A stretch of 64,000 bases of DNA, taken from Streptomyces sp. LUP47B. Lineage in GTDB: Bacteria; Actinomycetota; Actinomycetes; Streptomycetales; Streptomycetaceae. A program made the translations under genes and the position numbers. This document shows, one piece after another, positions 14,743 through 33,633 of this stretch. The notes under the pieces were generated by a model. It worked only from the letters and a program-made list of their open reading frames with translations, was not told the DNA's origin and did no database searches. The first letter of the stretch is position 1, and each line of letters opens with the position of its first letter. The DNA lies in contig NZ_MJAH01000002.1 of assembly GCF_001746295.1 (NCBI RefSeq), positions 539,762-603,761 of the forward strand, given 5' to 3'.

Positions 14743-14946
14743 ATGGCTACTGGCACCGTGAAGTGGTTCAACGCGGAAAAGGGCTTCGGCTTCATCGAGC
14801 AGGACGGCGGCGGCCCCGACGTCTTCGCCCACTACTCGAACATCTCCGCCCAGGGCTTCCGCGAGCTGCAGGAAGGCCAGAAGGTGTCCTTCGACATCGC
14901 TCAGGGCCAGAAGGGCCCGACGGCCGAGAACATCGTCAACGCCTGA
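14743..14946 (+). CDS. CspA-family cold-shock protein (first copy)
   Basis: A 67-aa OB-fold nucleic-acid chaperone. The RNP motifs [11 protein letters not shown] and DVFAHYSNI are intact. These proteins bind single-stranded RNA and melt secondary structure. AAGGAGA precedes the ATG at 14743. The first 22 codons are almost identical to those of the csp at 28645, so the two are recent or conserved paralogues. A terminator hairpin and a DEAD-box helicase gene follow. Confidence 0.95.
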
Positions 14947-14972: not shown

Positions 14973-15008
14973 AGCTGGGGCCCGCACCGTGCGGTGCGGG
15001 CCCCAGCT
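14973..15008 (+). terminator. terminator/attenuator between csp and helicase (first module)
   Basis: Arms at 14973-14989 and 14992-15008 are exact 17-bp complements, followed by CGCGGCATTTTT. The same position in the second module (28871-28901) carries a related hairpin built on GGGCCCGCAC. It probably limits transcription into the helicase gene. Confidence 0.75.
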
Positions 15009-15088
15009 CGCGGCATTTTTCAGGGCGCATCACACATCGCCTTCGGCTCGTTCTCGCGATTCTCTGCGCCGCTCATCGGCTGCGGGAA

Positions 15089-15117
15089 TTCCTTGATACG
15101 CGCCGTATCAAGGAAGG
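15089..15117 (+). promoter_or_regulatory. hairpin covering the helicase ribosome-binding site (first module)
   Basis: TTCCTTGATACG (15089-15100) pairs perfectly with CGTATCAAGGAA (15104-15115) over a 3-nt loop. The right arm contains most of AAGGAAGG (15110-15117), the Shine-Dalgarno of the helicase, whose ATG is at 15124. Folding would hide the site. The second module has a differently sequenced hairpin at the same position. Confidence 0.65.
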
Positions 15118-15123
15118 TTTCGC

Positions 15124-16587
15124 ATGAATCGCACACGCACTACTCCCACCCGTGGCCGCTCCGCCGGCCCGCGCCGTTCCAAGCCGCACGGAAATCGGCA
15201 GGCCGTGTCGGGCGAGTTCGCGCCGCCCAGGACGATCACGCCCGGGCTGCCCCCCGTCGAGGCGTTCGCCGATCTCGACATGCCCGCACGGCTGTTGGCC
15301 ACGCTGGCCCAGGAAGGCGTGACCGTACCGTTCCCGATCCAGGCGGCGACCCTGCCCAACTCCCTGGCCGGCCGTGACGTCCTCGGCCGCGGCCGCACCG
15401 GCTCGGGCAAGACCCTCGCCTTCGGCCTCGCCGCACTGGCCCGTACGGCGGGACGCCGTGCCGAGCCGCGACAGCCGCTCGCCCTGGTCCTCGTCCCCAC
15501 CCGCGAGCTCGCCCAGCAGGTCACCGACGCGCTCACTCCGTACGCCCGCTCCGTGAGCCTGCGGCTGGCCACCGTCGTCGGCGGGATGTCCATCGGCAGG
15601 CAGGCCGGCGCGCTGCGGGCCGGGGCCGAGATGGTCGTCGCGACGCCCGGGCGACTGAAGGACCTCATCGACCGGGGCGACTGCCGCCTTGACCAGGTGG
15701 CCATCACGGTCCTCGACGAGGCCGACCAGATGGCCGACATGGGCTTCATGCCCCAGGTCACCGCCCTGCTCGACCAGGTCCGCCCCGGCGGCCAGCGCAT
15801 GCTCTTCTCGGCCACCCTGGACCGCAACGTCGACCGGCTGGTGCGCAGCTACCTGCACGACCCCGTCGTCCACTCGGTCGACCCCTCGGCCGGCGCGGTC
15901 ACCACGATGGAGCACCACGTCCTGCATGTGCACGACGCGGACAAGCACCGGACGACCACCGAGATCGCGGCACGCGACGGCCGGGTGATCATGTTCCTCG
16001 ACACCAAGCACGCGGTGGACCGGCTGACCAAGCACCTGCTCAGCAGCGGTGTCCGCGCGGCGGCCCTGCACGGCGGCAAGTCCCAGCCGCAGCGCACCCG
16101 CACCCTGACGCAGTTCAAGTCCGGGCACGTCAACGTGCTGGTGGCGACCAACGTCGCGGCGCGCGGCATCCACGTCGACAACCTCGACCTCGTCGTCAAC
16201 GTCGACCCGCCCACCGACCACAAGGACTACCTGCACCGCGGCGGCCGTACGGCCCGCGCCGGCGAGTCCGGCAGCGTCGTCACCCTGGTCACTCCGAACC
16301 AGCGCCGCGACATGAGCCGGCTGATGGCTTCGGCGGGGATCACCCCGCAGATCGCCCAGGTGCGTTCGGGCGAGGCAGAGCTGAGCCGCATCACCGGCGC
16401 CCAGGCCCCGTCCGGGGTCCCGGTCGTCATCGCCGCGCCGCAGCCGGAACGCCCCCGCGGCGCGTCCTCCGCGTCCTCGTCCCGGGGCCGTCGCGGCCGC
16501 CGGAGCCAGTCCGGCCAGGGCCGCCCCGCGGGCGAAGCGGCACGCCGCGGCGGACCGCGACGGACCGGCTTCGGTTCCGCCGCCTAG
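15124..16587 (+). CDS. DEAD-box RNA helicase (first copy)
   Basis: A 487-aa ATP-dependent RNA helicase. After a basic N-terminal tail come the Q motif (PIQAATLPNSLAGRDVL), motif I GRTGSGKT (90-97), PTREL, DEAD (198-201), SAT, and motif VI HRGGRTARAGESG. The C-terminal tail is rich in Arg, Gly and Ser, typical of RNA-binding extensions. It follows a csp gene, as does its paralogue at 29033, and both proteins probably remodel structured RNA in the cold. Its ribosome-binding site lies in a hairpin. A 42-bp palindromic terminator follows. Confidence 0.93.
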   Translation: MNRTRTTPTRGRSAGPRRSKPHGNRQAVSGEFAPPRTITPGLPPVEAFADLDMPARLLATLAQEGVTVPFPIQAATLPNSLAGRDVLGRGRTGSGKTLAFGLAALARTAGRRAEPRQPLALVLVPTRELAQQVTDALTPYARSVSLRLATVVGGMSIGRQAGALRAGAEMVVATPGRLKDLIDRGDCRLDQVAITVLDEADQMADMGFMPQVTALLDQVRPGGQRMLFSATLDRNVDRLVRSYLHDPVVHSVDPSAGAVTTMEHHVLHVHDADKHRTTTEIAARDGRVIMFLDTKHAVDRLTKHLLSSGVRAAALHGGKSQPQRTRTLTQFKSGHVNVLVATNVAARGIHVDNLDLVVNVDPPTDHKDYLHRGGRTARAGESGSVVTLVTPNQRRDMSRLMASAGITPQIAQVRSGEAELSRITGAQAPSGVPVVIAAPQPERPRGASSASSSRGRRGRRSQSGQGRPAGEAARRGGPRRTGFGSAA

Positions 16588-22746: not shown

Positions 22747-25700
22747 GTGACGACCGAGTTGGTCCTGCTGTCCCGGGTCGCCCATCGCGGGCGGGAGATC
22801 ACCGCACCCCGACTGCGCGGCCTGCTCGCCCTGCTCGCGCAGGATCTGCGGACCGGCTGCAGCACGGGGCGGCTGGCGGAGGGGCTGTGGCCGGAGGAAC
22901 GCCCCGAGCGGCCCGCCAAGGCGGTGCAGGTGCTGGTGTCGCGGCTCAGGGCGCAGGTCGGGGCCGACCTGGTCGTGAGCACGCCCACGGGATACCGGCT
23001 GGCGCTTGAGGAGCGGCAGGTCGACAGTTCCGCGCTGGCGCTGCACGAGGTGGCGAGCGCCGAGCGGGCGCGGGGCGGGGATCACGAGGGCGCTCTCAGA
23101 CAGGCCGAGGCGGGGCTGGAGCTGTGGGACGGGAGCGTGGGCGCCGGAGCGGGCGAGGATCTGCACGATCCGGTGGTGGCGCTGCGGACCGGTCGGGTGC
23201 GGGTCTTCCGGGCTCTGGTGCGTTCCCGCGCGCTCTCGCTCGCCCGGCTGGGACGACGGGAGGAGGCGCTCGCGCCGCTCGCCGAGCTGGCCCGCGAGGC
23301 GCCCCGGGACGAGGAGGTGCTCGCCGAGCTGCTGCGCTGCGAGGCCGCGACCGCCGGGCGAGCCGCCGCGCTGGCCCGGTACGACACCTACCGGCGAGGG
23401 GTGCGCGAGGAACTCGGTACTGATCCGGGGGATGAACTGAGGGCCCTGCACCGGGAGTTGCTGAGCGCCGACACACCCCGCGTCCGCCATGGCGTGCCGC
23501 ACGAACCCAACCCCCTGCTGGGCCGGGACAGCGATGTCGCCGCGGTGGCCGGGCTGCTGCGGGAGGCCAGGGTGGTCACCGTCGTCGGAGCCGGCGGGCT
23601 GGGCAAGACCCGCCTGTCCCACGCGGTGAGCCGGGCCGCCGAGCAGCCCGTGGTGCACTTCGTGGCGCTGGCCGGCGTCACCGCCGACGAGGACGTGGCC
23701 GGTGAGGTGGCCTCCGCCGTGGGGGCGGGGGAAGGGCGGCAGTTCACCGGGGACGCGGTGAGCGGCATCGTCGCCGCGCTGGGCACCGGGCCCGCGCTGC
23801 TGGTGCTGGACAACTGCGAACAGGTGATCGCCGGCGCCGCCGACCTCGTACAGGCACTGGTGTCGCGGTCGAAGGAGCTGCGGATCCTGGCCACCGGCCG
23901 GGCCCCGCTCGGCCTCACCTCCGAGTCCGTGTACGCCCTGCCGGAGCTGTCCCCGGCCACCTCGGCCGAGCTCTTCGTGCAGCGGGCCCGGGCCGCCCGC
24001 CCCGGTGTGGAGCTGCCCGCCGACCGGGTGGCCGAGATCTGCCGGCACCTGGACGGACTGCCGCTCGCCGTGGAGCTGGCCGCGGCCCGGGTGCGGGTGC
24101 TGTCCGTGGCCGACATCGCGCGCCGGCTCCGGGACCGCTTCGCGCTGCTGCGGGGCGGGGCCCGGGACACGCCCGAGCGGCACCGCACGCTCCAGGCCGT
24201 GGTCGAGTGGAGCTGGAACCTGCTGGAACCCGAGGGCCGGGCGGCGCTGCGGGCGCTGTCCGTCTTCCCCGGGGGCTTCACCGAGGAGGCCGCGCGGTAC
24301 GTCCTCGGCGACACCGGCGACGCGCTGGCCCTCCTGGAGCAACTGGCCGGTCAGTCCCTGCTCAAGGTGGACGACAGCCCGTCCGGGGTCCGCTTCGGGA
24401 TGCTGGAGACACTGCGGGAGTTCGGCGCCGCCCGCCTCGCCGAGGCCGGCGGGACGGAGGCGGTGACCGGCCGGTTCCTGGCCTGGGCACGGGACTTCGG
24501 CCGGGCCCACCACGACGTCCTGTTCACCGGCGACCAGTTGCCGGCCCGGATCCGCATCCGGGCCGAGCAGGACAACCTCGTCCTGGCCCTGCGGCACGCG
24601 CTGGCCCGCGCCGACGGTCCCGCCACCGCGGCCGTCACCGCCGTACTCGCCTCCCTGTGGGCCACCGAGACCCACTACGCCCGGCTCGCCGCCCTCGCCG
24701 CCGAGACCGGCGGACCGCTGTCGCACTTCCTCCCCGGCCCCGGTAACCCCGAGGACGTCGAGCCGGCCCGCAGCGCGGCGGCGGCGTGCGCGGCCAGTCT
24801 CGTCATGGGTCAGGGCACCCGCGCCGTACGGCAGTTCGTGACCCTGCGCCGACTGCCGCCCGCCCCGCCCGACACCCTGCTGCGGGCGGTGAACGTGGTG
24901 CTGAACGCGGTACCGGACATGCATCCGCCGCACTACGCACGGCTCCAGGAGCTCTGCGACGCCGGGGAACCCCTGCTGGCGGGCGTCGCGACCTGCGTCG
25001 CCAGCTATGTGTGGGAGTCCGAGCACGAGCCGGAGCGCGCGCTGGAGTGCGCCCGCCGGATGACCGGCACGCTGGGCCCGCTCCGCAACCCGTCCATGAT
25101 GCTGCTCACCCACGGCCGGATCAGCCAGCTGTGTCTCCAGTCCGGGCGGGCCGAGGAGGCCTACGACCATCTGCGCGCCCTGCTCGGCACGCTCGACGCG
25201 TTCGGCGACCGGTGGGACTCGATCGGCGTGCGCTGGAGTCTGGTGCAGGCGTGTCTGCAGCGCGGGGAGGTCGACGAGGCCGAGTACTGGCTGGGGCTCG
25301 CCGCTCTGGACCGGCAGCCGGAGGGCATGCAGCTCTACACCCCCGACCTGTCCTCCCGGGCGGAGCTCGCGCTGGCCCGGGGGCTGACCGAGACCGGGCT
25401 CGGGCTGTGGCGCCAGGCGGTGGCGCGTACCCGGGAGGCCGTACCGCTGCACGCCGGTGACCCGTTCCTGGAGCCGTGGTCCCTGGAGGTGTGCGCGGCC
25501 GCGCTCGCGGCCCACGTCCAGCACGGCCGCCCGGAGCCGGTGGCCGGTCTCGCCGACGAGCTGCGCGAACGGCTGCTGGTCATGCTGACCGCCGACTCCG
25601 ACGACAGGTCTCCGGCCGGCTTCCCGGTCTACGGCACCGTCCTGCTGGCCCTCGGCTTCGCCGGGCTGGCCCGGGGCGACACGGCGGCCGTACGGCTGGT

Positions 25701-25890
25701 GGCGCTGGCGGAACGGATGCTGGTCGGGCGGGAGTACCCCACCCTGTCCGCCGCCCGGTCCCGGCAGGCCGCGGAGAACGCCGACAGGGCGGCGTACGCC
25801 GAGGCCCGCACGGCGTACGCCGCCCTGGGGCGGGAGGAGCTGCGGGCCGAGGCCCTGCGCGAACTGGTCAGGTCCGCGGCTCGCGGGTGA
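22747..25890 (+). CDS. AfsR/SARP-like regulator with NB-ARC ATPase
   Basis: A 1047-aa regulator. An OmpR-type winged helix (about 1-90) and BTAD domain (about 95-240) form the SARP head, followed by an AP/NB-ARC ATPase with Walker A GAGGLGKT (281-288) and Walker B LLVLDNCEQ, and a long helical C-terminus of TPR-like character. Such proteins activate secondary-metabolism genes by binding short direct repeats. The start is a GTG with only a GGGGG run upstream. Its last 23 bp overlap the 3' end of a convergent ABC permease gene, and 11-bp repeats lie upstream of that exporter. Confidence 0.88.
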   Translation: MTTELVLLSRVAHRGREITAPRLRGLLALLAQDLRTGCSTGRLAEGLWPEERPERPAKAVQVLVSRLRAQVGADLVVSTPTGYRLALEERQVDSSALALHEVASAERARGGDHEGALRQAEAGLELWDGSVGAGAGEDLHDPVVALRTGRVRVFRALVRSRALSLARLGRREEALAPLAELAREAPRDEEVLAELLRCEAATAGRAAALARYDTYRRGVREELGTDPGDELRALHRELLSADTPRVRHGVPHEPNPLLGRDSDVAAVAGLLREARVVTVVGAGGLGKTRLSHAVSRAAEQPVVHFVALAGVTADEDVAGEVASAVGAGEGRQFTGDAVSGIVAALGTGPALLVLDNCEQVIAGAADLVQALVSRSKELRILATGRAPLGLTSESVYALPELSPATSAELFVQRARAARPGVELPADRVAEICRHLDGLPLAVELAAARVRVLSVADIARRLRDRFALLRGGARDTPERHRTLQAVVEWSWNLLEPEGRAALRALSVFPGGFTEEAARYVLGDTGDALALLEQLAGQSLLKVDDSPSGVRFGMLETLREFGAARLAEAGGTEAVTGRFLAWARDFGRAHHDVLFTGDQLPARIRIRAEQDNLVLALRHALARADGPATAAVTAVLASLWATETHYARLAALAAETGGPLSHFLPGPGNPEDVEPARSAAAACAASLVMGQGTRAVRQFVTLRRLPPAPPDTLLRAVNVVLNAVPDMHPPHYARLQELCDAGEPLLAGVATCVASYVWESEHEPERALECARRMTGTLGPLRNPSMMLLTHGRISQLCLQSGRAEEAYDHLRALLGTLDAFGDRWDSIGVRWSLVQACLQRGEVDEAEYWLGLAALDRQPEGMQLYTPDLSSRAELALARGLTETGLGLWRQAVARTREAVPLHAGDPFLEPWSLEVCAAALAAHVQHGRPEPVAGLADELRERLLVMLTADSDDRSPAGFPVYGTVLLALGFAGLARGDTAAVRLVALAERMLVGREYPTLSAARSRQAAENADRAAYAEARTAYAALGREELRAEALRELVRSAARG

Positions 25891-26674
25891 AGCGGGACCT
25901 CGACCAGAAGTAGCCCAGCACGGTCAGGGCCACACACCAGCCGACGGTGAGCAGCGCGTTCTTCGTGCCGATGGCGCTGCCCAGCAGCAGTCCGCGCAGG
26001 GTCTCGGTGGCGGGTGAGAAGGGCTGGTACTCGGCGAACCAGCTGAACCACCCCGGCATGGCGTCCACCGGCACGAACGCGCTGGACAGCAGCGGCAGCA
26101 CCATCAGGGGCAGGGCGAGGTTGCTGGCCCCTTCGGCGTTGGGGCTCACCAGTCCCATACCGACCGCGATCCAGATCAGCGCGAGACTGACCAGCGTCAG
26201 CAGTCCGGCCGCCGCGAGCCATTCCACCGGTGTGGCGTCGGGCCGGAAGCCGATGGCCAGCCCGACGGCCAGCACCACCGCGAGCGCCATCAGGGTCTGG
26301 ATCACACTGCCGACGACATGCCCGATCAGCACCGAGGCGCGGGAGATGGCCATGGTGCGGAACCGGGCGATGATGCCCTCGGTCATGTCGGAGGCCACGG
26401 ACACCGCGGTGCCGATGGCGGTCCCGCCGACGGTCATGAGCAGGACGCCGGGGACGACGTAGGCGATGTACTCGGAGCGGTCCCCGGGGCCGCCGGTGAT
26501 GCCGGCGCTCATCACGTCACCGAAGACGTAGACGAAGAGCAGCAGCAGGATGACCGGGGTGAGCAGGAGGTTCAGGGTGAGGGAGGGGTAGCGGCGGGCG
26601 TGCAGGAGGTTGCGCCGCAGCATCGTGACGTGGTCACGCAGGGCGTGGGTGGCGGGAGCCGCGGGGGCGGTCAT
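25868..26674 (-). CDS. ABC-2 exporter permease, DrrB-like
   Basis: A 268-aa permease with six hydrophobic segments and the ABC-2 family core (AIGTAVSVASDMTEGIIARF and the SSAFVPVDAMPGWFSWFAEY region). It pairs with the ATPase gene just upstream through a 4-bp overlap (26671-26674). Homologues export anthracyclines and other drugs. Its 3' end overlaps the convergent SARP-like gene by 23 bp. Confidence 0.88.
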   Translation of the reverse strand: MTAPAAPATHALRDHVTMLRRNLLHARRYPSLTLNLLLTPVILLLLFVYVFGDVMSAGITGGPGDRSEYIAYVVPGVLLMTVGGTAIGTAVSVASDMTEGIIARFRTMAISRASVLIGHVVGSVIQTLMALAVVLAVGLAIGFRPDATPVEWLAAAGLLTLVSLALIWIAVGMGLVSPNAEGASNLALPLMVLPLLSSAFVPVDAMPGWFSWFAEYQPFSPATETLRGLLLGSAIGTKNALLTVGWCVALTVLGYFWSRSRFTREPRT

Positions 26675-27639
26675 CGGACGGTCTCCTTGGGCTGGTCGGT
26701 GACGTCGGCGCTGCCGGTCAGGGCGAAGAACACGTCGTCCAGGTCGGGGGTGTGCACGGACAGCTCGTCGGCCTCGACTCCGGCCGCGTCCAGCCAGTCG
26801 AGTACGGCCCGCAGTTCGCGCTGGCTGCCGTCGCTGGGGATCTGCAGGGCGAGGGCCTGGTCGTCGCGGCCGGCCTCACGCAGTGCGGTCGCCGCCTGTT
26901 CGTAGGCCTGCGGGTCGGAGAAGCGCAGTCGTACGTGACCGCCGGGGACGAGCCGCTTGAGCTCCTCGGCGCTGCCCTCGGCGACGAGTCTGCCGTGGTT
27001 GAGCACCGCGATGCGGTCGGCGAGCTGGTCGGCCTCGTCCAGGTACTGGGTGGTCAGGAGGACGGTCGTACCGCCCGACACCAGCTCGCGGATGATCTGC
27101 CACATGGTGTGGCGGCTGCGCGGGTCGAGGCCGGTGGTGGGCTCGTCCAGGAAGATGATCCGCGGGTCGCCGACCAGGGTCATGGCGATGTCGAGACGGC
27201 GTGCCATGCCTCCGGAGTAGGTGGACGCGGGCTTCTTCGCGGCCTCGGCGAGGTCGAAGCGTTCCAGCAGTCCGGCGGTGACCCTTCGGCCCTCCCGCTT
27301 GGAGAGGTGGTGCAGGTCCGCCATCAGGAGCATGTTCTCCTCGCCGGTGATCAGCCGGTCCACGGCGGAGAACTGTCCGGTGACCCCGATGGCGGCGCGT
27401 ACCGCCTGGGCCTCGGCCGTGAGGTCGTGGCCGCCGACCCTGGCCTGTCCGGCGTCCGCCGAGATCAGCGTGGACAGGATGTTGACCACCGTGGTCTTGC
27501 CCGCGCCGTTCGGCCCGAGGAGCGCGAAGACCGTCCCGGCGGGCACCCGGATGTCGATGCCGTCGAGGACGGTCTTGTCCCCGTAGGACTTGCGCAGCCC
27601 GTTGGCCGCGATCGCGAGTTCATGGTCCGTCGTCGTCAT
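26671..27639 (-). CDS. ABC exporter ATPase, DrrA-like
   Basis: A 322-aa ATP-binding subunit. Walker A GPNGAGKT (42-49), signature YSGGMARRLDIA (141-152), Walker B IIFLDEP, and the C-terminal extension typical of DrrA-type drug-resistance ATPases are present. It drives the DrrB-like permease encoded next. No good ribosome-binding site precedes the ATG, so the mRNA may be leaderless or nearly so. TTCA direct repeats at 11-bp period start about 24 bp upstream. Confidence 0.9.
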   Translation of the reverse strand: MTTTDHELAIAANGLRKSYGDKTVLDGIDIRVPAGTVFALLGPNGAGKTTVVNILSTLISADAGQARVGGHDLTAEAQAVRAAIGVTGQFSAVDRLITGEENMLLMADLHHLSKREGRRVTAGLLERFDLAEAAKKPASTYSGGMARRLDIAMTLVGDPRIIFLDEPTTGLDPRSRHTMWQIIRELVSGGTTVLLTTQYLDEADQLADRIAVLNHGRLVAEGSAEELKRLVPGGHVRLRFSDPQAYEQAATALREAGRDDQALALQIPSDGSQRELRAVLDWLDAAGVEADELSVHTPDLDDVFFALTGSADVTDQPKETVR

Positions 27640-28644: not shown

Positions 28645-28848
28645 ATGGCATCTGGCACCGTGAAGTGGTTCAACGCGGAAAAGGGCTTCGGCTTCATCGA
28701 GCAGGACGGCGGCGGCGCCGACGTGTTCGCGCACTACTCGAACATCGCCACCTCCGGCTTCCGCGAGCTTCAGGAAGGCCAGAAGGTTACCTTCGACGTC
28801 ACGCAGGGCCAGAAGGGCCCGCAGGCCGAGAACATCGTTCCCGCCTGA
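28645..28848 (+). CDS. CspA-family cold-shock protein (second copy)
   Basis: A 67-aa cold-shock-domain protein with RNP motifs [11 protein letters not shown] and DVFAHYSNI. It differs from the first copy at few residues (for example ATSG for SAQG and TFDVTQ for SFDIAQ). The ATG at 28645 has AGGGAGA upstream; open frame further upstream belongs to the leader. It is followed by a terminator-like hairpin and a DEAD-box helicase gene, as in the first module. Confidence 0.95.
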
Positions 28849-28870
28849 CGCTGACGCGTATCTTCACGGC

Positions 28871-28901
28871 TGGGGCCCGCACTCTTGGGGTGCGGGCCCT
28901 G
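28871..28901 (+). terminator. terminator/attenuator between csp and helicase (second module)
   Basis: GGGCCCGCAC (28873-28882) pairs with GTGCGGGCCC (28890-28899) over a 7-nt loop, with two flanking G-T pairs. The left arm is nearly identical to that of the first module's hairpin at 14973, while the distal part differs. No T-tract is present here. Confidence 0.65.
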
Positions 28902-28989
28902 TCCCATTGTCCCGAAGAATCTGAATTCTTCGTTTCTCCCCGGCTCTTTCTTGCGAATTCTCGTGCGGTTTCGCCGCGCCCCGGAGGAA

Positions 28990-29022
28990 TTCCTCGACAC
29001 GTGCCGCACGCATCGAGGAGGG
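28990..29022 (+). promoter_or_regulatory. hairpin covering the helicase ribosome-binding site (second module)
   Basis: TCCTCGA (28991-28997) pairs with TCGAGGA (29013-29019); after a small internal loop CGTG (29000-29003) pairs with CACG (29007-29010). The outer right arm overlaps the GAGGAGGG ribosome-binding site (29015-29022) of the helicase at 29033. The structure is kept relative to the first module while the sequence differs. Confidence 0.6.
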
Positions 29023-29032
29023 TTCCGCTCCC

Positions 29033-30478
29033 ATGAACCGCACCCGTCGCACCGGGAACAGCACCGGAAACAACGGGAACAACACGTCCCGTTTCCGCTC
29101 CTCCCGCGGCGCGAGCCACCAGCGCTCACGCCCGGCCGCCGCACCCGGCGGCGAGTTCACGCTCCCCACCACCGTCACCGAGGCGCTGCCCGCGGTGGAG
29201 GCGTTCGCCGACCTCGACCTGCCCGAGCGCCTGCAGGCCGCGCTCCGCACCGAGGGAGTGACCACACCCTTCCCGATCCAGGCGGCGACCCTGCCGAACT
29301 CCCTGGCCGGCCGTGACGTCCTGGGCCGTGGCCGCACCGGTTCGGGCAAGACGCTCGCCTTCGGTCTGCCCCTGCTGGCCCGCCTGGACGGCCGGCGTGC
29401 CGAGCCCCGGCATCCGCTCGCCCTGGTCCTGGTACCGACCCGCGAACTGGCCCAGCAGGTCACCGACGCGCTCACCCCCTACGCGCGGGCGCTGCGCCTG
29501 CGCGCGGCGACCGTCGTCGGCGGCATGTCGATCGGCCGTCAGGCGTCCGCGCTGCGGGCCGGCGCCGAGGTCCTCGTGGCGACCCCCGGCCGGCTCAAGG
29601 ACCTCATCGAACGCGGCGACTGCAGTCTGAGCCAGGTGACGATGACCGTCCTGGACGAGGCCGACCAGATGACCGACATGGGCTTCATGCCCCAGGTCAC
29701 CTACCTGCTCGACCAGGTCCGTCCCGACGGCCAGCGGATGCTGTTCTCCGCCACGCTCGACCGCAACATCGACCTGCTGGTGCGCCGCTATCTGCACGAC
29801 CCGGTGGTCCACTCGGTCGACCCGTCCTCGGGCACCGTCACCACCATGGAGCACCATCTCCTGCACGTCCGCGACGACGACAAGCACGCCACCGCCACCG
29901 AGATCGCCGCCCGCGACGGCCGCGTGATCATGTTCCTGGACACCAAGCACGCGGCGGAGCGGCTGGCCAAGCACCTGCTGTCGGTGGGTGTACGGGCCTC
30001 GGCGCTGCACGGCGGCAAGTCCCAGCCGCAGCGCACCCGGACCCTCGGCCAGTTCAAGGACGGTCAGGTGACGGTCCTGGTGGCCACCAACGTGGCGGCC
30101 CGCGGGATCCACGTCGACGACGTCGACCTCGTCGTCAACTTCGACCCGCCCGGCGACCACAAGGACTACCTGCACCGCGGCGGCCGTACGGCCCGCGCCG
30201 GCGAGTCCGGCACCGTCGTCACCCTGGTCCTGCCGCACCAGCGGCGCGCGGTGGACCGTCTGATGTCCGACGCCGGCGTCACCGCGCAGACCACCCGGGT
30301 CCGCCCGGGCGAGGCCGAACTGAACCGCATCACCGGAGCCCGCACTCCCTCCGGCGTGCCCGTCGTCCTCCCGGTCCCGGCCGCCGCCGAGCCGCCCAAG
30401 CGCTCCGGGGCCCCCGGGCGGAGCCGCAGCGGCCGTCCCGCGCGGGGCCGCCGCCGCTCCACCCCCACCAGCCGATAG
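29033..30478 (+). CDS. DEAD-box RNA helicase (second copy)
   Basis: A 481-aa paralogue of the 15124 product with intact Q motif, GRTGSGKT, PTREL, DEAD, SAT and HRGGRTARAGESG. N- and C-terminal tails are basic and low in complexity (Asn/Gly-rich at the front, Arg/Gly/Ser-rich at the end). The protein unwinds RNA at the expense of ATP. It is preceded by csp and a hairpin over its ribosome-binding site, and followed by a terminator and a small conserved gene. Confidence 0.93.
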   Translation: MNRTRRTGNSTGNNGNNTSRFRSSRGASHQRSRPAAAPGGEFTLPTTVTEALPAVEAFADLDLPERLQAALRTEGVTTPFPIQAATLPNSLAGRDVLGRGRTGSGKTLAFGLPLLARLDGRRAEPRHPLALVLVPTRELAQQVTDALTPYARALRLRAATVVGGMSIGRQASALRAGAEVLVATPGRLKDLIERGDCSLSQVTMTVLDEADQMTDMGFMPQVTYLLDQVRPDGQRMLFSATLDRNIDLLVRRYLHDPVVHSVDPSSGTVTTMEHHLLHVRDDDKHATATEIAARDGRVIMFLDTKHAAERLAKHLLSVGVRASALHGGKSQPQRTRTLGQFKDGQVTVLVATNVAARGIHVDDVDLVVNFDPPGDHKDYLHRGGRTARAGESGTVVTLVLPHQRRAVDRLMSDAGVTAQTTRVRPGEAELNRITGARTPSGVPVVLPVPAAAEPPKRSGAPGRSRSGRPARGRRRSTPTSR

Positions 30479-30905: not shown

Positions 30906-31197
30906 ACCGCCGGGCACCACGGCCGACGCCGTGGAGCCTGCGGGAACAGGAGTACGACCCGGCCCCCGACCCCCGTCCGGCTCGCGTCCACCCACCCGGC
31001 CCCCACCCGCTCGCCGGTCAGCAGGTTCCACACCTGTACTCCGCACTCCGGGTGCCCAGATCGCTCCGTTCCGTTTCCCAGCCCCGCCAAGCGTGCAAGA
31101 CTGCGGCTCCGCACGGCAGAGCCGCCGTGTGCCTCCTGTCCTCGCGTGCCTCCTGTCATCGCTTGAGCGGGGAGCTGCGCGGCGCGACGCTGGGGGC

Positions 31198-33633
31198 ATG
31201 GACAGCAGGGGCAGCACACCCGGAGGCACCGTGGACGGACGCGTACCCGAGGACCTGGCGGTCGTCGTCGACGCGGTCGGGACGGTCACGGTGTGGAGCG
31301 CCGGGGCACGGCAGCTGCTCGGATACGAGGCCGAGGAGGTCGTAGGACGTCCTGCGGCCGGACTGCTCGCGGCCGATCTGCCCGAGTCCGCGCGGCGCCA
31401 TGTGGCCGTCGGCCGGCGCTGGGCCACCGAGGTGGCGCTGCGGCACCGGGACGGCGGCCGGGTCGTCGTACGGCTGACGGGGACACCGCTCGCGGACGGC
31501 GACGGCGGGCGGCCGTGGCTGGTGACCCCCGCGGCCCCGGAGCATGTGGCCGGACCCGTCGAACCGGACGCGGAGGCCCTGTGGGACCTCACGCTCGCCC
31601 AGCTGCCCGTGCCGGTGGCGGTCTACGACCGTGAGGCCCGGCTGGTGTCGGCCAACGAGGCCATGACCCGGGTGATGGGCCGCAGCCTGACCGAGATGCG
31701 CGGCCTGACCCTGTGGGACATAGAGCCGAACCCGCCCTTCGACGAGTACGACCGCCTCCAGCGGCAGGTCCTGCGCACCGGCGAGCCGGTCTTCCACGAG
31801 AACTTCGGACAGGCGCCCGGCGAGGTCCGGGACCACGCCTGGTCGATGTTCCTCTCGCCGCTGAAGGACGAGAGCGGGGCGGTGCGGGGCGTGTCCGCGG
31901 CCGTCTTCGACACCACGGAGCAGTACTGGGCCCGCCGTCGCCTCGCCATCCTCAACGACGCCAGCATCCGCATCGGCAGCACCCTGGACGTGACCCGGAC
32001 CGCCGACGAGCTCGCCGAGGTGGCGGTGACGGGCTTCGCGGACTTCGTCACCGTGGACCTGCTGGAGTCGGTGGCGCTCGGCGAGGAACCGGAACCGGTG
32101 CCGCCGGACCGGCCGGTCACCCTGCGCCGTACGGCCCAGCGGTCGGTCCTCGACGGCTGCCCCGAGTCGGTGGTCCCGACCGGCGCGACGACGCTCTACC
32201 CGGTGGACACACCCCCGATGCGGGCCCTGATCGCCGGCCGCGGCACCCTGACGTCGGCCGCGGACCCCGGGATGCAGCGGTGGATCGAGGCCTCCCGGGG
32301 CCGCGCCGAAGCCGTGAGCAGGCACATGATCCACTCGGTGATGATGGTGCCGCTGCGCGCCCGTGGGGTCACCCTGGGCCTGGTGCACTTCCTGCGGCAC
32401 CGTACGGCGGAGCCCTTCAGCGAGGACGACGTGCTGCTCGCGGAGGAGATCGTCGCGAGGGCGGCGGTGAGCGTGGACAACGCCCGCCGCTACACCCATG
32501 AACGCCGCACCGCGCTCACCCTCCAGCGCAGCCTCCTCCCCGAGCGCCCGCCGGACCTGGCGGCGATGCAGGTGGCGTACCGCTATCTCCCTGCGGGCTC
32601 CGGCGCGGACGTCGGCGGGGACTGGTTCGACGTCATCCCGCTGTCCGGCGCCCGGGTCGCCCTGGTCGTGGGTGACGTGGTGGGCCACGGCATCCACGCC
32701 TCGGCGACGATGGGCCGCCTGCGGACGGCCGTACGGACACTCGCGGACGTGGACCTCGCCCCCGACGAGCTCCTCACCCAGCTCGACGACCTGGTCGTCA
32801 GGCTCGACCGGGAGGAAGGGCCGCAGGCCGGCGGGCGGGCTCAGGCCCCGACGCCGGGCGAGGTGGGGGCCACCTGCCTGTACGCGGTCTACGACCCGGT
32901 TTCCCGCCGCTGCACGATGGCCCGTGCCGGCCACCCGCCGCCGGCCGTGGTCACCCCCGACGGCGAGGTCCGCTTCCTGAACCTCCCGACCGGCCCCCCG
33001 CTCGGCCTGGGCGGTCTGCCGTTCGAGTCCGTCGAGGTGGAACTGGCGGAGGGCAGCCTGCTCGCCCTCTACACCGACGGCCTGGTCGAGGCGGCCGACC
33101 GCGACATCGAGGACGGCCTGAACCTGCTGCGCGGGGCGCTCGCCGAAAAGGCGGGCCCGCTGGAGGAGACCTGCGACCGGGTCCTGCGGACGGTCCTGCC
33201 GGCCCGCCCCGCCGACGACATCGTCCTGATGCTGGCCCGCACGTCGGCCCTGGACACCGCGAGGGTCCGCACCTGGCAGCTCCCGCGCGACCCGGCGGCC
33301 GTGGCGCGGGCACGGAAGTCGGCGAGCGAGCAGGTGACGGCGTGGGGGCTGGGCGATACGGCTTTCGCGACGGAACTGATCGTCAGCGAGCTGGTCACCA
33401 ACGCCGTCCGCTACGGCGACGACCCGGTCGTCCTACGGCTGATCCGGGACACGGCGCTGATCTGCGAGGTGTCCGACGGCAGCAGCACGGCTCCGCATCT
33501 GCGGCGGGCGAGGGTGTTCGACGAGGGTGGGCGGGGGCTGCTGCTGGTCGCGCAGATGGCGGAGCGATGGGGGAGCCGGCAGACGGCCACGGGGAAGACG
33601 ATCTGGGCGGAACTGGGGTTACCGGGCGATTAG
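31198..33633 (+). CDS. PAS-PAS-GAF-PP2C (SpoIIE) phosphatase with HATPase domain
   Basis: An 811-aa multidomain regulator: two PAS domains (about 15-115 and 130-240), GAF (about 255-440), a SpoIIE-type PP2C phosphatase (about 455-665, with DVGGDWFDVI, GDVVGHGIHAS and ALYTDGLVEAADRD), and an RsbW-like ATPase (about 690-805, with ELVTNAVRYG). Such proteins control anti-sigma/anti-anti-sigma switches in stress and development. Codon 808 is TTA (33619-33621), the rare leucine codon read by bldA tRNA in Streptomyces, so full-length protein may appear only late in development. The ATG at 31198 has GGGGG upstream; the preceding open frame looks non-coding. Confidence 0.88.
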   Translation: MDSRGSTPGGTVDGRVPEDLAVVVDAVGTVTVWSAGARQLLGYEAEEVVGRPAAGLLAADLPESARRHVAVGRRWATEVALRHRDGGRVVVRLTGTPLADGDGGRPWLVTPAAPEHVAGPVEPDAEALWDLTLAQLPVPVAVYDREARLVSANEAMTRVMGRSLTEMRGLTLWDIEPNPPFDEYDRLQRQVLRTGEPVFHENFGQAPGEVRDHAWSMFLSPLKDESGAVRGVSAAVFDTTEQYWARRRLAILNDASIRIGSTLDVTRTADELAEVAVTGFADFVTVDLLESVALGEEPEPVPPDRPVTLRRTAQRSVLDGCPESVVPTGATTLYPVDTPPMRALIAGRGTLTSAADPGMQRWIEASRGRAEAVSRHMIHSVMMVPLRARGVTLGLVHFLRHRTAEPFSEDDVLLAEEIVARAAVSVDNARRYTHERRTALTLQRSLLPERPPDLAAMQVAYRYLPAGSGADVGGDWFDVIPLSGARVALVVGDVVGHGIHASATMGRLRTAVRTLADVDLAPDELLTQLDDLVVRLDREEGPQAGGRAQAPTPGEVGATCLYAVYDPVSRRCTMARAGHPPPAVVTPDGEVRFLNLPTGPPLGLGGLPFESVEVELAEGSLLALYTDGLVEAADRDIEDGLNLLRGALAEKAGPLEETCDRVLRTVLPARPADDIVLMLARTSALDTARVRTWQLPRDPAAVARARKSASEQVTAWGLGDTAFATELIVSELVTNAVRYGDDPVVLRLIRDTALICEVSDGSSTAPHLRRARVFDEGGRGLLLVAQMAERWGSRQTATGKTIWAELGLPGD

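Follow-up and report, generated by a model that had tools for sequence, protein, structure and literature searches.

A candidate translational leader RNA with two competing predicted folds upstream of DEAD-box helicase genes in Streptomyces and related actinobacteria

The DNA analyzed here, referred to below as the window, is a stretch of 64,000 nucleotides from a Streptomyces genome of 11.0 Mb in 56 contigs. It contains two modules in which a cold-shock gene (csp) is followed by a DEAD-box RNA helicase gene, both on the + strand and 14 kb apart. In module 1, csp (14743..14946) encodes a 67-aa cold-shock domain protein (Pfam PF00313 CSD, E 1.4e-30) and the helicase gene (15124..16587, ATG at 15124) encodes a protein of 487 aa (PF00270, E 1.5e-43; PF00271, E 5.9e-28). 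Module 2 has its csp at 28645..28848 (PF00313, E 5.1e-31) and a 481-aa helicase at 29033..30478 (ATG at 29033; PF00270, E 1.6e-45). PF00313 scored above its curated cut-off for both csp products, as did PF00270 and PF00271 for both helicases, which are 76% identical to each other; the closest helicase among the best 80 named loci, from S. canus, is 98% identical. A third csp-helicase unit of this genome is found on contig C21 (20435-23667), where an extra csp gene lies just 3' of the helicase on the same strand. Between and after the modules, at 22747-25887, 25871-27639 and 30931-33630, the window encodes a BTAD/NB-ARC protein, an ABC transporter pair and a PAS/GAF/SpoIIE/HATPase protein, as assigned by Pfam.

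The space between csp and helicase holds two hairpins in each module. Hairpin A, which is terminator-like, lies just 3' of csp at 14973..15008 in module 1 (+ strand; 16 bp, fold -38.4 kcal/mol) and at about 28868..28904 in module 2 (+ strand; -29.4 kcal/mol), and a similar hairpin is present 3' of csp in the listed relatives. Hairpin B covers the Shine-Dalgarno (SD) sequence of the helicase. In module 1 it occupies 15089-15115 on the + strand, with 12 complementary base pairs, 11 of them in the predicted fold (-15.3 kcal/mol). Its two arms, delimited by fold and covariation, are TTCCTTGAT on the 5' side (15089..15097) and ATCAAGGAA on the 3' side (15107..15115); the apical loop between them, ACGCGCCG (15098..15105, from aligned columns), is complementary to a box further upstream. 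Most of the SD, AAGGAAGG (15110..15117, 6 nt 5' of the ATG), lies inside the 3' arm. Hairpin B of module 2 (28990-29020, + strand; -15.2 kcal/mol) consists, by sequence and fold, of the 5' arm TTCCTCGA (28990..28997) and a 3' arm containing the SD, TCGAGGAG (29013..29020), around a loop read from the sequence, ACGTGCCG (28999..29006). An earlier note on this DNA had described a hairpin after csp and an SD-hiding hairpin in both modules, and folds and sequence bear this out at the positions given. In each module the intergenic sequence folds more stably than any of its 200 dinucleotide shuffles (z -5.23 in module 1 and -2.85 in module 2).

Hairpin A looks like an ordinary terminator-like hairpin of csp. 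A terminator pattern scan left hairpin A itself uncalled and marked only a short stem over its 3' arm (14995-15012), at chance level (1 found vs. 0.6 expected). This genome has eight csp genes, and by eye each of them except L016 has its own terminator-like hairpin directly downstream; the hairpins after csp genes without a linked helicase differ in sequence. The suggestion that hairpin A is a special, Csp-controlled attenuator, and with it that of an attenuator specific to the module, is not supported, since such hairpins follow csp genes with or without a helicase. Read-through of hairpin A into the helicase, the other part of that suggestion, is plausible. In five csp-helicase paralog pairs (L304-L308) the spacer measures only 89-131 nt and is mostly occupied by hairpin A, and since little room for a promoter is left after it, read-through is likely in these pairs. 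At two further loci, L184 and L256, the csp reading frame is gone and the csp promoter region is still found 5' of the element described below (as the exact motif in L256, by eye in L184). This retained region is CTAGTGTCGATCTC-like and stands there as if for the helicase; the conserved csp promoter or leader motif, TAnnnTCGATCTCAGTTG-like, lies at 998-1015 of L001, and the fetched loci, some of which overlap, contain 65 matches to it. In the consensus of 39 loci with spacers of 300-390 nt, no conserved -10-like hexamer was seen in the spacer, and conservation falls to about 0.5 between hairpin A and the element, which weakens a spacer promoter for the helicase and makes read-through the simpler view, though this is not proof. 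Read-through of this kind would leave the helicase scarcer than Csp.

Two stretches stand out as strongly conserved in the same 39 loci, one being hairpin A and the other the ~90 nt that lead up to the helicase. A covariance model of the latter (R1), built from 45 sequences, gave three strong matches in this genome, all before csp-linked helicases; a weak fourth match (21.3 bits, E 0.07) precedes a csp-less helicase paralog, where CCUUCC and GGAAGG can be paired over the SD by eye. R1 matches were found in 91 of 101 genomes of the genus (E<=0.01), G008 only at 0.003, with up to four copies per genome among the matches listed. In the family, 54 of 61 genomes and 15 of 17 genera had matches (E<=0.05), one of the 54 (G435) being a single match at E 0.005 without a helicase that looks like chance. 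Across the class there were matches in 34 of 296 genomes, 25 of them from the same genus; outside the family, G274, G190 and G290 are clear, with csp and helicase, and six others are weak (E 0.009-0.048). The element also occurs in a second family of the order. In one set of 49 source loci, seven were without a match (L293, L296, L304-L308). A search of named genomes returned, among its best 80 loci, Streptomyces entries and one titled 'Actinobacteria bacterium'. A csp match lies upstream in 78 of these 80; L088 starts inside the end of csp, and in L063 csp looks broken by eye. Hairpins A and B are visible in nearly all loci whose sequences were inspected. An exception is L093, in which short repeats have taken the place of the upstream part and hairpin B no longer exists; no element match was obtained there at the search threshold. 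Of the R1 matches from the genome, genus, class and family searches, a part was fetched for closer examination.

In the loci compared, the element follows the helicase and not csp. Of 239 elements, 233 have a helicase downstream; the other six comprise four short stretches fetched from helicase matches, one element at a contig edge and one without a helicase. The best 80 loci and 20 later ones are no test of this association because they were found through the helicase, whereas the genome searches with R1 do test it. Among 148 clear-match loci (L097-L099, L103-L155, L158-L227, L238-L259), 145 have a helicase; L111 lies at a contig edge, and L222 and L255 have none. L222 keeps the element before what is apparently an AGG in place of the helicase start and is probably a decayed copy. 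In L255 the element and csp are present and another reading frame (MNPERRNERSS...) occupies the position of the helicase. An occurrence of the element before other genes was considered and set aside: among the fetched matches with genome E >0.005, a helicase is found only at L231, L100 and the antisense L102.

A csp match lies upstream in 225 of the 239 elements. This frequent neighbourhood is one reason to consider that the adjacent Csp might melt hairpin A by antitermination and hairpin B by release of the ribosome-binding site, thereby switching on its own helicase, as the earlier note had proposed; antitermination of the CspA type is known in E. coli, and helicase transcription by read-through is likely where spacers are short. 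Of the 14 loci without a csp match, four have little or limited upstream DNA (L088, L212, L298, L300). The other ten are informative, nine with at least 1300 nt upstream and L063, whose csp is the seemingly broken one, with 1243 nt, and the element is retained in every one of them, in one case as a weak match only. They are L063, L184, L256, L225, the weak csp-less copy of this genome and five loci of one genus (L190, L192, L193, L194, L195) in which a tRNA-Met(CAT) gene lies directly 5' of element and helicase in place of csp. L225 has a diverged helicase (60% identical). Conversely, the csp-helicase pairs L304-L308 have hairpin A and no element at E<=0.005. The element thus neither depends on an adjacent csp nor is guaranteed by one. 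The neighbouring Csp is accordingly not required, although Csps may act in trans. Considering also that terminator-like hairpins follow csp genes without a helicase and that nothing sets hairpin A apart from an ordinary terminator, we regard a switch operated by the neighbouring Csp as improbable.

For the analysis of pairing, 244 aligned rows were reduced to 239 by dropping the antisense second rows of L161, L248 and L162 and the duplicates L282 and L226; near-identical rows remain among the 239, and 196 are non-redundant. L222, with its lost start codon, is outside the alignments by the choice of sources. The tree null was computed with a custom script that places Fitch events on random branches, on a tree built from the element itself in all tests except those with a helicase-protein tree, which covers those 180 of the 196 rows whose helicase sequence was sufficient. 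The alignment model includes hairpin B and a mini-hairpin, U, and their counts lean towards it; the helix P0 described below is absent from the model.

The earlier note had also held that the pairing of hairpin B is kept by compensatory change. Between modules 1 and 2, the lower stem offers one clean compensatory pair (CUUGA/UCAAG to CUCGA/UCGAG), and the two sequences alone therefore give little. Across relatives, the claim was confirmed. The 196 non-redundant elements contain 88 doubly changed, still-paired cells in hairpin B, against 16.7 +/- 10.0 under the tree null (0/1000), and at least seven of the nine pairs form in 190 of them. On the independent helicase-protein tree, doubly changed cells numbered 87 vs. 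29.0 (1/1000) and the paired fraction was 0.935 vs. 0.758 (0/1000). In 100 sequences, 13 of the 15 model pairs (12 of B and 3 of U) are changed on both sides, compared with 8.0 in shuffles, and there are 97 doubly changed cells vs. 40.8, with 0 of 500 shuffles as high. A structure-blind alignment of 100 sequences, which serves as a check free of the lean towards the model, gave weaker results for B, both for the 12 bp (paired fraction, 75/1000; doubly changed cells, 3/1000) and for the lower 8 bp (41/1000 and 100/1000, respectively). An all-pairs covariation scan of the 100 sequences yielded no individually significant pair among 3570, the best helix pair having an E of about 2.0. A covariation search within Streptomyces had been named as a check. 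In a Streptomyces-like subset (n = 103), the paired fraction of B is high (6/1000), yet the number of doubly changed cells equals what the null predicts (4 vs. 3.7), and the compensatory signal therefore comes mostly from the wider comparisons. The range given for hairpin B in the earlier note holds, but only the lower ~9 bp form a conserved stem; the apical ACG/CGU stem of single-sequence folds has no support (286 and 85 of 1000). Mini-hairpin U (GYR-AUUCUCYR-YGC) shows some covariation and was set aside, as it overlaps helix M, introduced below. An outer helix, GCGGGA/UUCCGC, was rejected as well, with 87.7% of cells paired yet only one of its six pairs changed on both sides.

Since hairpin B of module 1 is a perfect 12-bp inverted repeat, its arms could in principle be a DNA operator for a regulator of helicase transcription. 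At pairs 48-52 of B, however, GU and UG wobbles together number 69 and AC and CA mismatches 3, and over all nine pairs of B the excess is smaller (wobble, 95; A-C mismatch, 43). The preservation of wobbles, with A-C mismatches rarer, is specific to one strand and argues for RNA rather than DNA structure; the inner part of P0 behaves likewise, with 74 GU and UG against 12 AC and CA. As the repeat also overlaps the SD, an operator is hardly believable. In the folds of 99 of the 100 sequences, the mean pairing probability of the SD was 0.80 and exceeded 0.5 in 97%, a level of pairing that on average 14% of upstream shuffles reach, and the fold energy of the last 62 nt was only moderately out of the ordinary (mean z -1.9, with 37% of the 99 sequences below -2). 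With a conserved, covarying stem over its SD, the element qualifies as a predicted SD-sequestering translational leader, in which hairpin B would block translation.

The picture of two hairpins proved right for A and B and incomplete, since it missed a conserved box upstream of hairpin B, within the range that the note covered, and the competing pairing of that box with the loop of B. The box, CGGCYCRU, lies ~80 nt before the start codon, at 15044..15053 in module 1 (+ strand; CGGCTCGTTC, from aligned columns and pairing tests) and at 28941..28950 in module 2 (+ strand; CGGCTCTTTC, within the R1 match 28941-29041 of 53.1 bits). The box sequence by itself is no rarity: with one mismatch allowed, the window has 22 occurrences of it vs. 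11.8 expected, although the only exact copy is at 15044. The loop of B, AYGYGCCG, is complementary to the box. An in-frame GTG in many of these loops was rejected as an alternative start, since the loop base there varies between T and C. Box and loop could form a helix, P0, of seven pairs flanking a conserved pyrimidine-pyrimidine mismatch. P0 was first drawn by clade-wise consensus folds, then read from the columns, and tested on the same data in which it was found. All seven pairs are retained in 115 of the 196 elements and six in 59 (at least six in 174), while in module 2 box and loop share six of the seven pairs by eye and five in aligned columns. The central position is Y-Y in 186 of 196, as if full pairing were avoided there.

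Of the two variable interior pairs of P0, pair 7-56 is GC in 149, AU in 27 and AC in 9 elements, and a box with CAU mostly accompanies a loop with AUG. Pair 4-59 is CG in 153, UG in 34 and UA in 4, and all four ACCG loops go with a CGGU box (L070, L188, L202, L253). For these two pairs, doubly changed cells number 31 vs. 2.8 on the element tree (3/1000) and 30 vs. 6.0 on the helicase tree (19/1000). For the whole helix, the paired fraction and doubly changed cells stood at 50 and 17 of 1000 on the element tree and at 40 and 19 in a repeat run, after 18 and 168 of 2000 in an earlier tree-null run; the helicase tree (180/196) gave 36 and 52 of 1000. In the Streptomyces-like subset, the paired fraction is unexceptional (208/1000) and doubly changed cells reach 7/1000. 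Slid controls for P0 fell below the null mean, the terminal pair 1-62 is often CA (19), and P0 pair 7-148 ranked third in the all-pairs scan of 100 sequences (E about 5.7). Statistical support for P0 is thus real but modest, about 1 to 8% for the whole helix. Beyond the loop, box position C10 is complementary to G52 in 182 of 196 and G13 to C49 in 183 of 196, both in the 5' arm of B, and these positions hardly vary. In the predicted fold in which P0 forms, it is extended by helix M (5' strand, 15058..15067; 3' strand, 15082..15090; + strand; from folds and alignment tests), which shows no excess of double changes.

From conservation, covariation of hairpin B, the weaker covariation of P0, wobble pairs, helicase association and computed energies, we think it rather probable that the stretch of ~90 nt up to and including the helicase start codon serves in cis as a translational leader RNA, one that can adopt either of two folds but not both at once. 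In the OFF fold, hairpin B would pair UUCCUUGAU with AUCRAGGAA and bury the SD. In the ON fold, the box, CGGCYCRUUC, would pair with the loop of B and also with the uppermost bases of the 5' arm, the first 62 nt would form one long hairpin through helix M, and the SD would be single-stranded. Transcription would enter the leader either by passing through hairpin A or from a promoter closer by. Since the polymerase completes the box, helix M and the loop ahead of the SD arm, ON is expected to be the first fold to appear; OFF, mostly the more stable of the two, should then replace it unless a ribosome has already bound.

In nascent prefixes ending with the loop, mean P0 pairing over the 196 sequences was 0.89 and exceeded 0.5 in 92%; loop-to-box pairing was 0.89 vs. 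0.50 with shuffled boxes. At 37 C, OFF is the more stable fold by an average of 4.9 kcal/mol in the 196 sequences, with gaps of 8.6, 5.2 and 13.8 kcal/mol for the three copies of this genome, and ON is favoured in 9% of sequences; ON must therefore be kinetic or helped. Two competing pairings are both conserved, the covariation of P0 being modest, and the layout is probably that of a kinetic switch, in which the SD would be open first and then hidden unless used. We infer that the leader is transcribed as drawn, that OFF blocks translation and that ON comes first.

The conserved complementarity of box and loop could be read in other ways. It is possible, if somewhat unlikely, that the pairing of box and loop coexists with the lower stem of B in a pseudoknot, the two jointly shutting the SD and perhaps creating a structure to which the helicase, a Csp or a ribosomal factor binds. 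With such a lock, mutation of the box would raise expression, the opposite of what the switch would show. The geometry is compatible with it: 13 nt lie inside pair 52-66 in 129 of 195 sequences, and linkers of 2 and 3 nt surround the eight loop bases in 154 of 174. Moreover, the lower stem and P0 both covary and the apical ACG/CGY stem does not. On the other hand, the complementarity of the conserved box positions 10 and 13 to the 5' arm fits exclusive folds, although positions so nearly invariant prove little. Alternatively, hairpin B could simply set a constant, low translation of the helicase relative to Csp, with no switching. The same conservation of hairpin B would be expected from such a static leader, and we know of no ligand or factor for it, but the strongly conserved box, the complementarity of the loop and the conserved central mismatch would be left unexplained, and we consider a static leader most improbable.

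Temperature is an obvious candidate signal, the genes being of the cold-shock type and the E. coli cspA mRNA being a known structural thermosensor, and either hairpin B could melt on warming or the balance of ON and OFF could shift with cold. For L002, the copy of this genome outside the window, the predicted ON-OFF gap does narrow in the cold, from 5.9 at 45 C to 3.1 at 4 C. In both copies of the window, however, the gap widens in the cold, and over the 196 sequences it is almost constant, with a mean of 5.2 at 4 C and 5.0 at 45 C and a fraction favouring ON of 0.16 and 0.07, respectively. Predicted pairing of the SD in module 1 is nearly flat (0.874 at 4 C, 0.868 at 37 C and 0.809 at 65 C), with module 2 alike, and from 4 to 37 C it stays at about 0.87-0.90 in both modules, so that no melting of the zipper type is predicted. 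Since hairpin B is predicted to be stable from 4 to 65 C, it would be no simple thermometer, and we hold an RNA thermometer of either kind to be very unlikely.

If the two-fold leader is right, it would be a cis-regulatory RNA, undescribed in the literature searched, controlling an RNA helicase in 91 of the 101 sampled genomes of the main antibiotic-producing genus. What it might respond to can be put forward tentatively: the leader could be a kinetic sensor, with nascent RNA trapped in ON and the helicase, Csps or both speeding its decay to the SD-hiding hairpin. A protein that remodels RNA, such as the one encoded by the downstream gene, would be expected to accelerate this decay. That helicase or Csps catalyze the refolding, and so provide feedback, is speculative. 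Were it true, ample remodelling activity would shut down helicase synthesis and a shortage, for instance in the cold, would leave the RNA in ON, with feedback operating through folding kinetics and not through a ligand or binding site. This raises the question of whether a bacterium can gauge its capacity for RNA unfolding from the folding kinetics of a single mRNA leader.

No Rfam 15 family reached its gathering score in the 64-kb window, and in six loci searched at E up to 1 only a tRNA in L190 exceeded it. RF01766, the E. coli cspA leader (cut-off 78 bits), matched in three of these six loci, always below the cut-off (best, 39.8 bits) and overlapping csp genes. In the E. coli leader, competing folds expose or hide the ribosome site. 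The element described here is similar in its cold-shock gene neighbourhood and in having competing folds at the ribosome site, and differs in that it precedes a helicase rather than csp and has no clear predicted response to temperature.

In the literature, we found no description of the element in the set searched, outside of which most subscription-journal papers fall. From their neighbouring locus numbers, SCO3731 (csp) and SCO3732 (helicase) of S. coelicolor M145 appear to be this pair. According to the available portions of the respective reports, SCO3732 is a DEAD/DEAH box helicase listed as methylated at 18-24 h, and 5-aza-dC increased its transcription, though the rise at 24 h was not significant (PMC10148868), and SCO3731 is one of six csp genes with increased translational efficiency after heat shock, while transcription of the group fell (PMC6009599), and is among the genes under putative HrdB-RbpA control (PMC6344877). 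Such an element is unmentioned in the accessible passages on S. venezuelae RNase III and J (PMC12096830) and on H. pylori RhpA (PMC5874925).

Among other systems, Streptomyces leader motifs such as dauA, livJ, pntA and asfR are likewise RNA motifs, several of which include the SD of the next gene, but the genes named in the available text are others, its sole 'helicase' passage being a remark on a mobile element (PMC11109978). The actinobacterial LEU element of leuA and the SD-hiding T-boxes of ileS, as far as the accessible account describes them, also use alternative structures or pseudoknots near the SD, and differ in genes and layout and in having leader peptides or T-box parts, which were not seen here (PMC1262725). 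Finally, the RNA helicase CrhR of Synechocystis is autoregulated; in the sections available, control in this unrelated organism concerns the accumulation and half-life of transcript and protein, and no SD-hiding switch is described; the parallel to the sensor proposed here is that an RNA helicase governs the expression of its own gene (PMC3485376).
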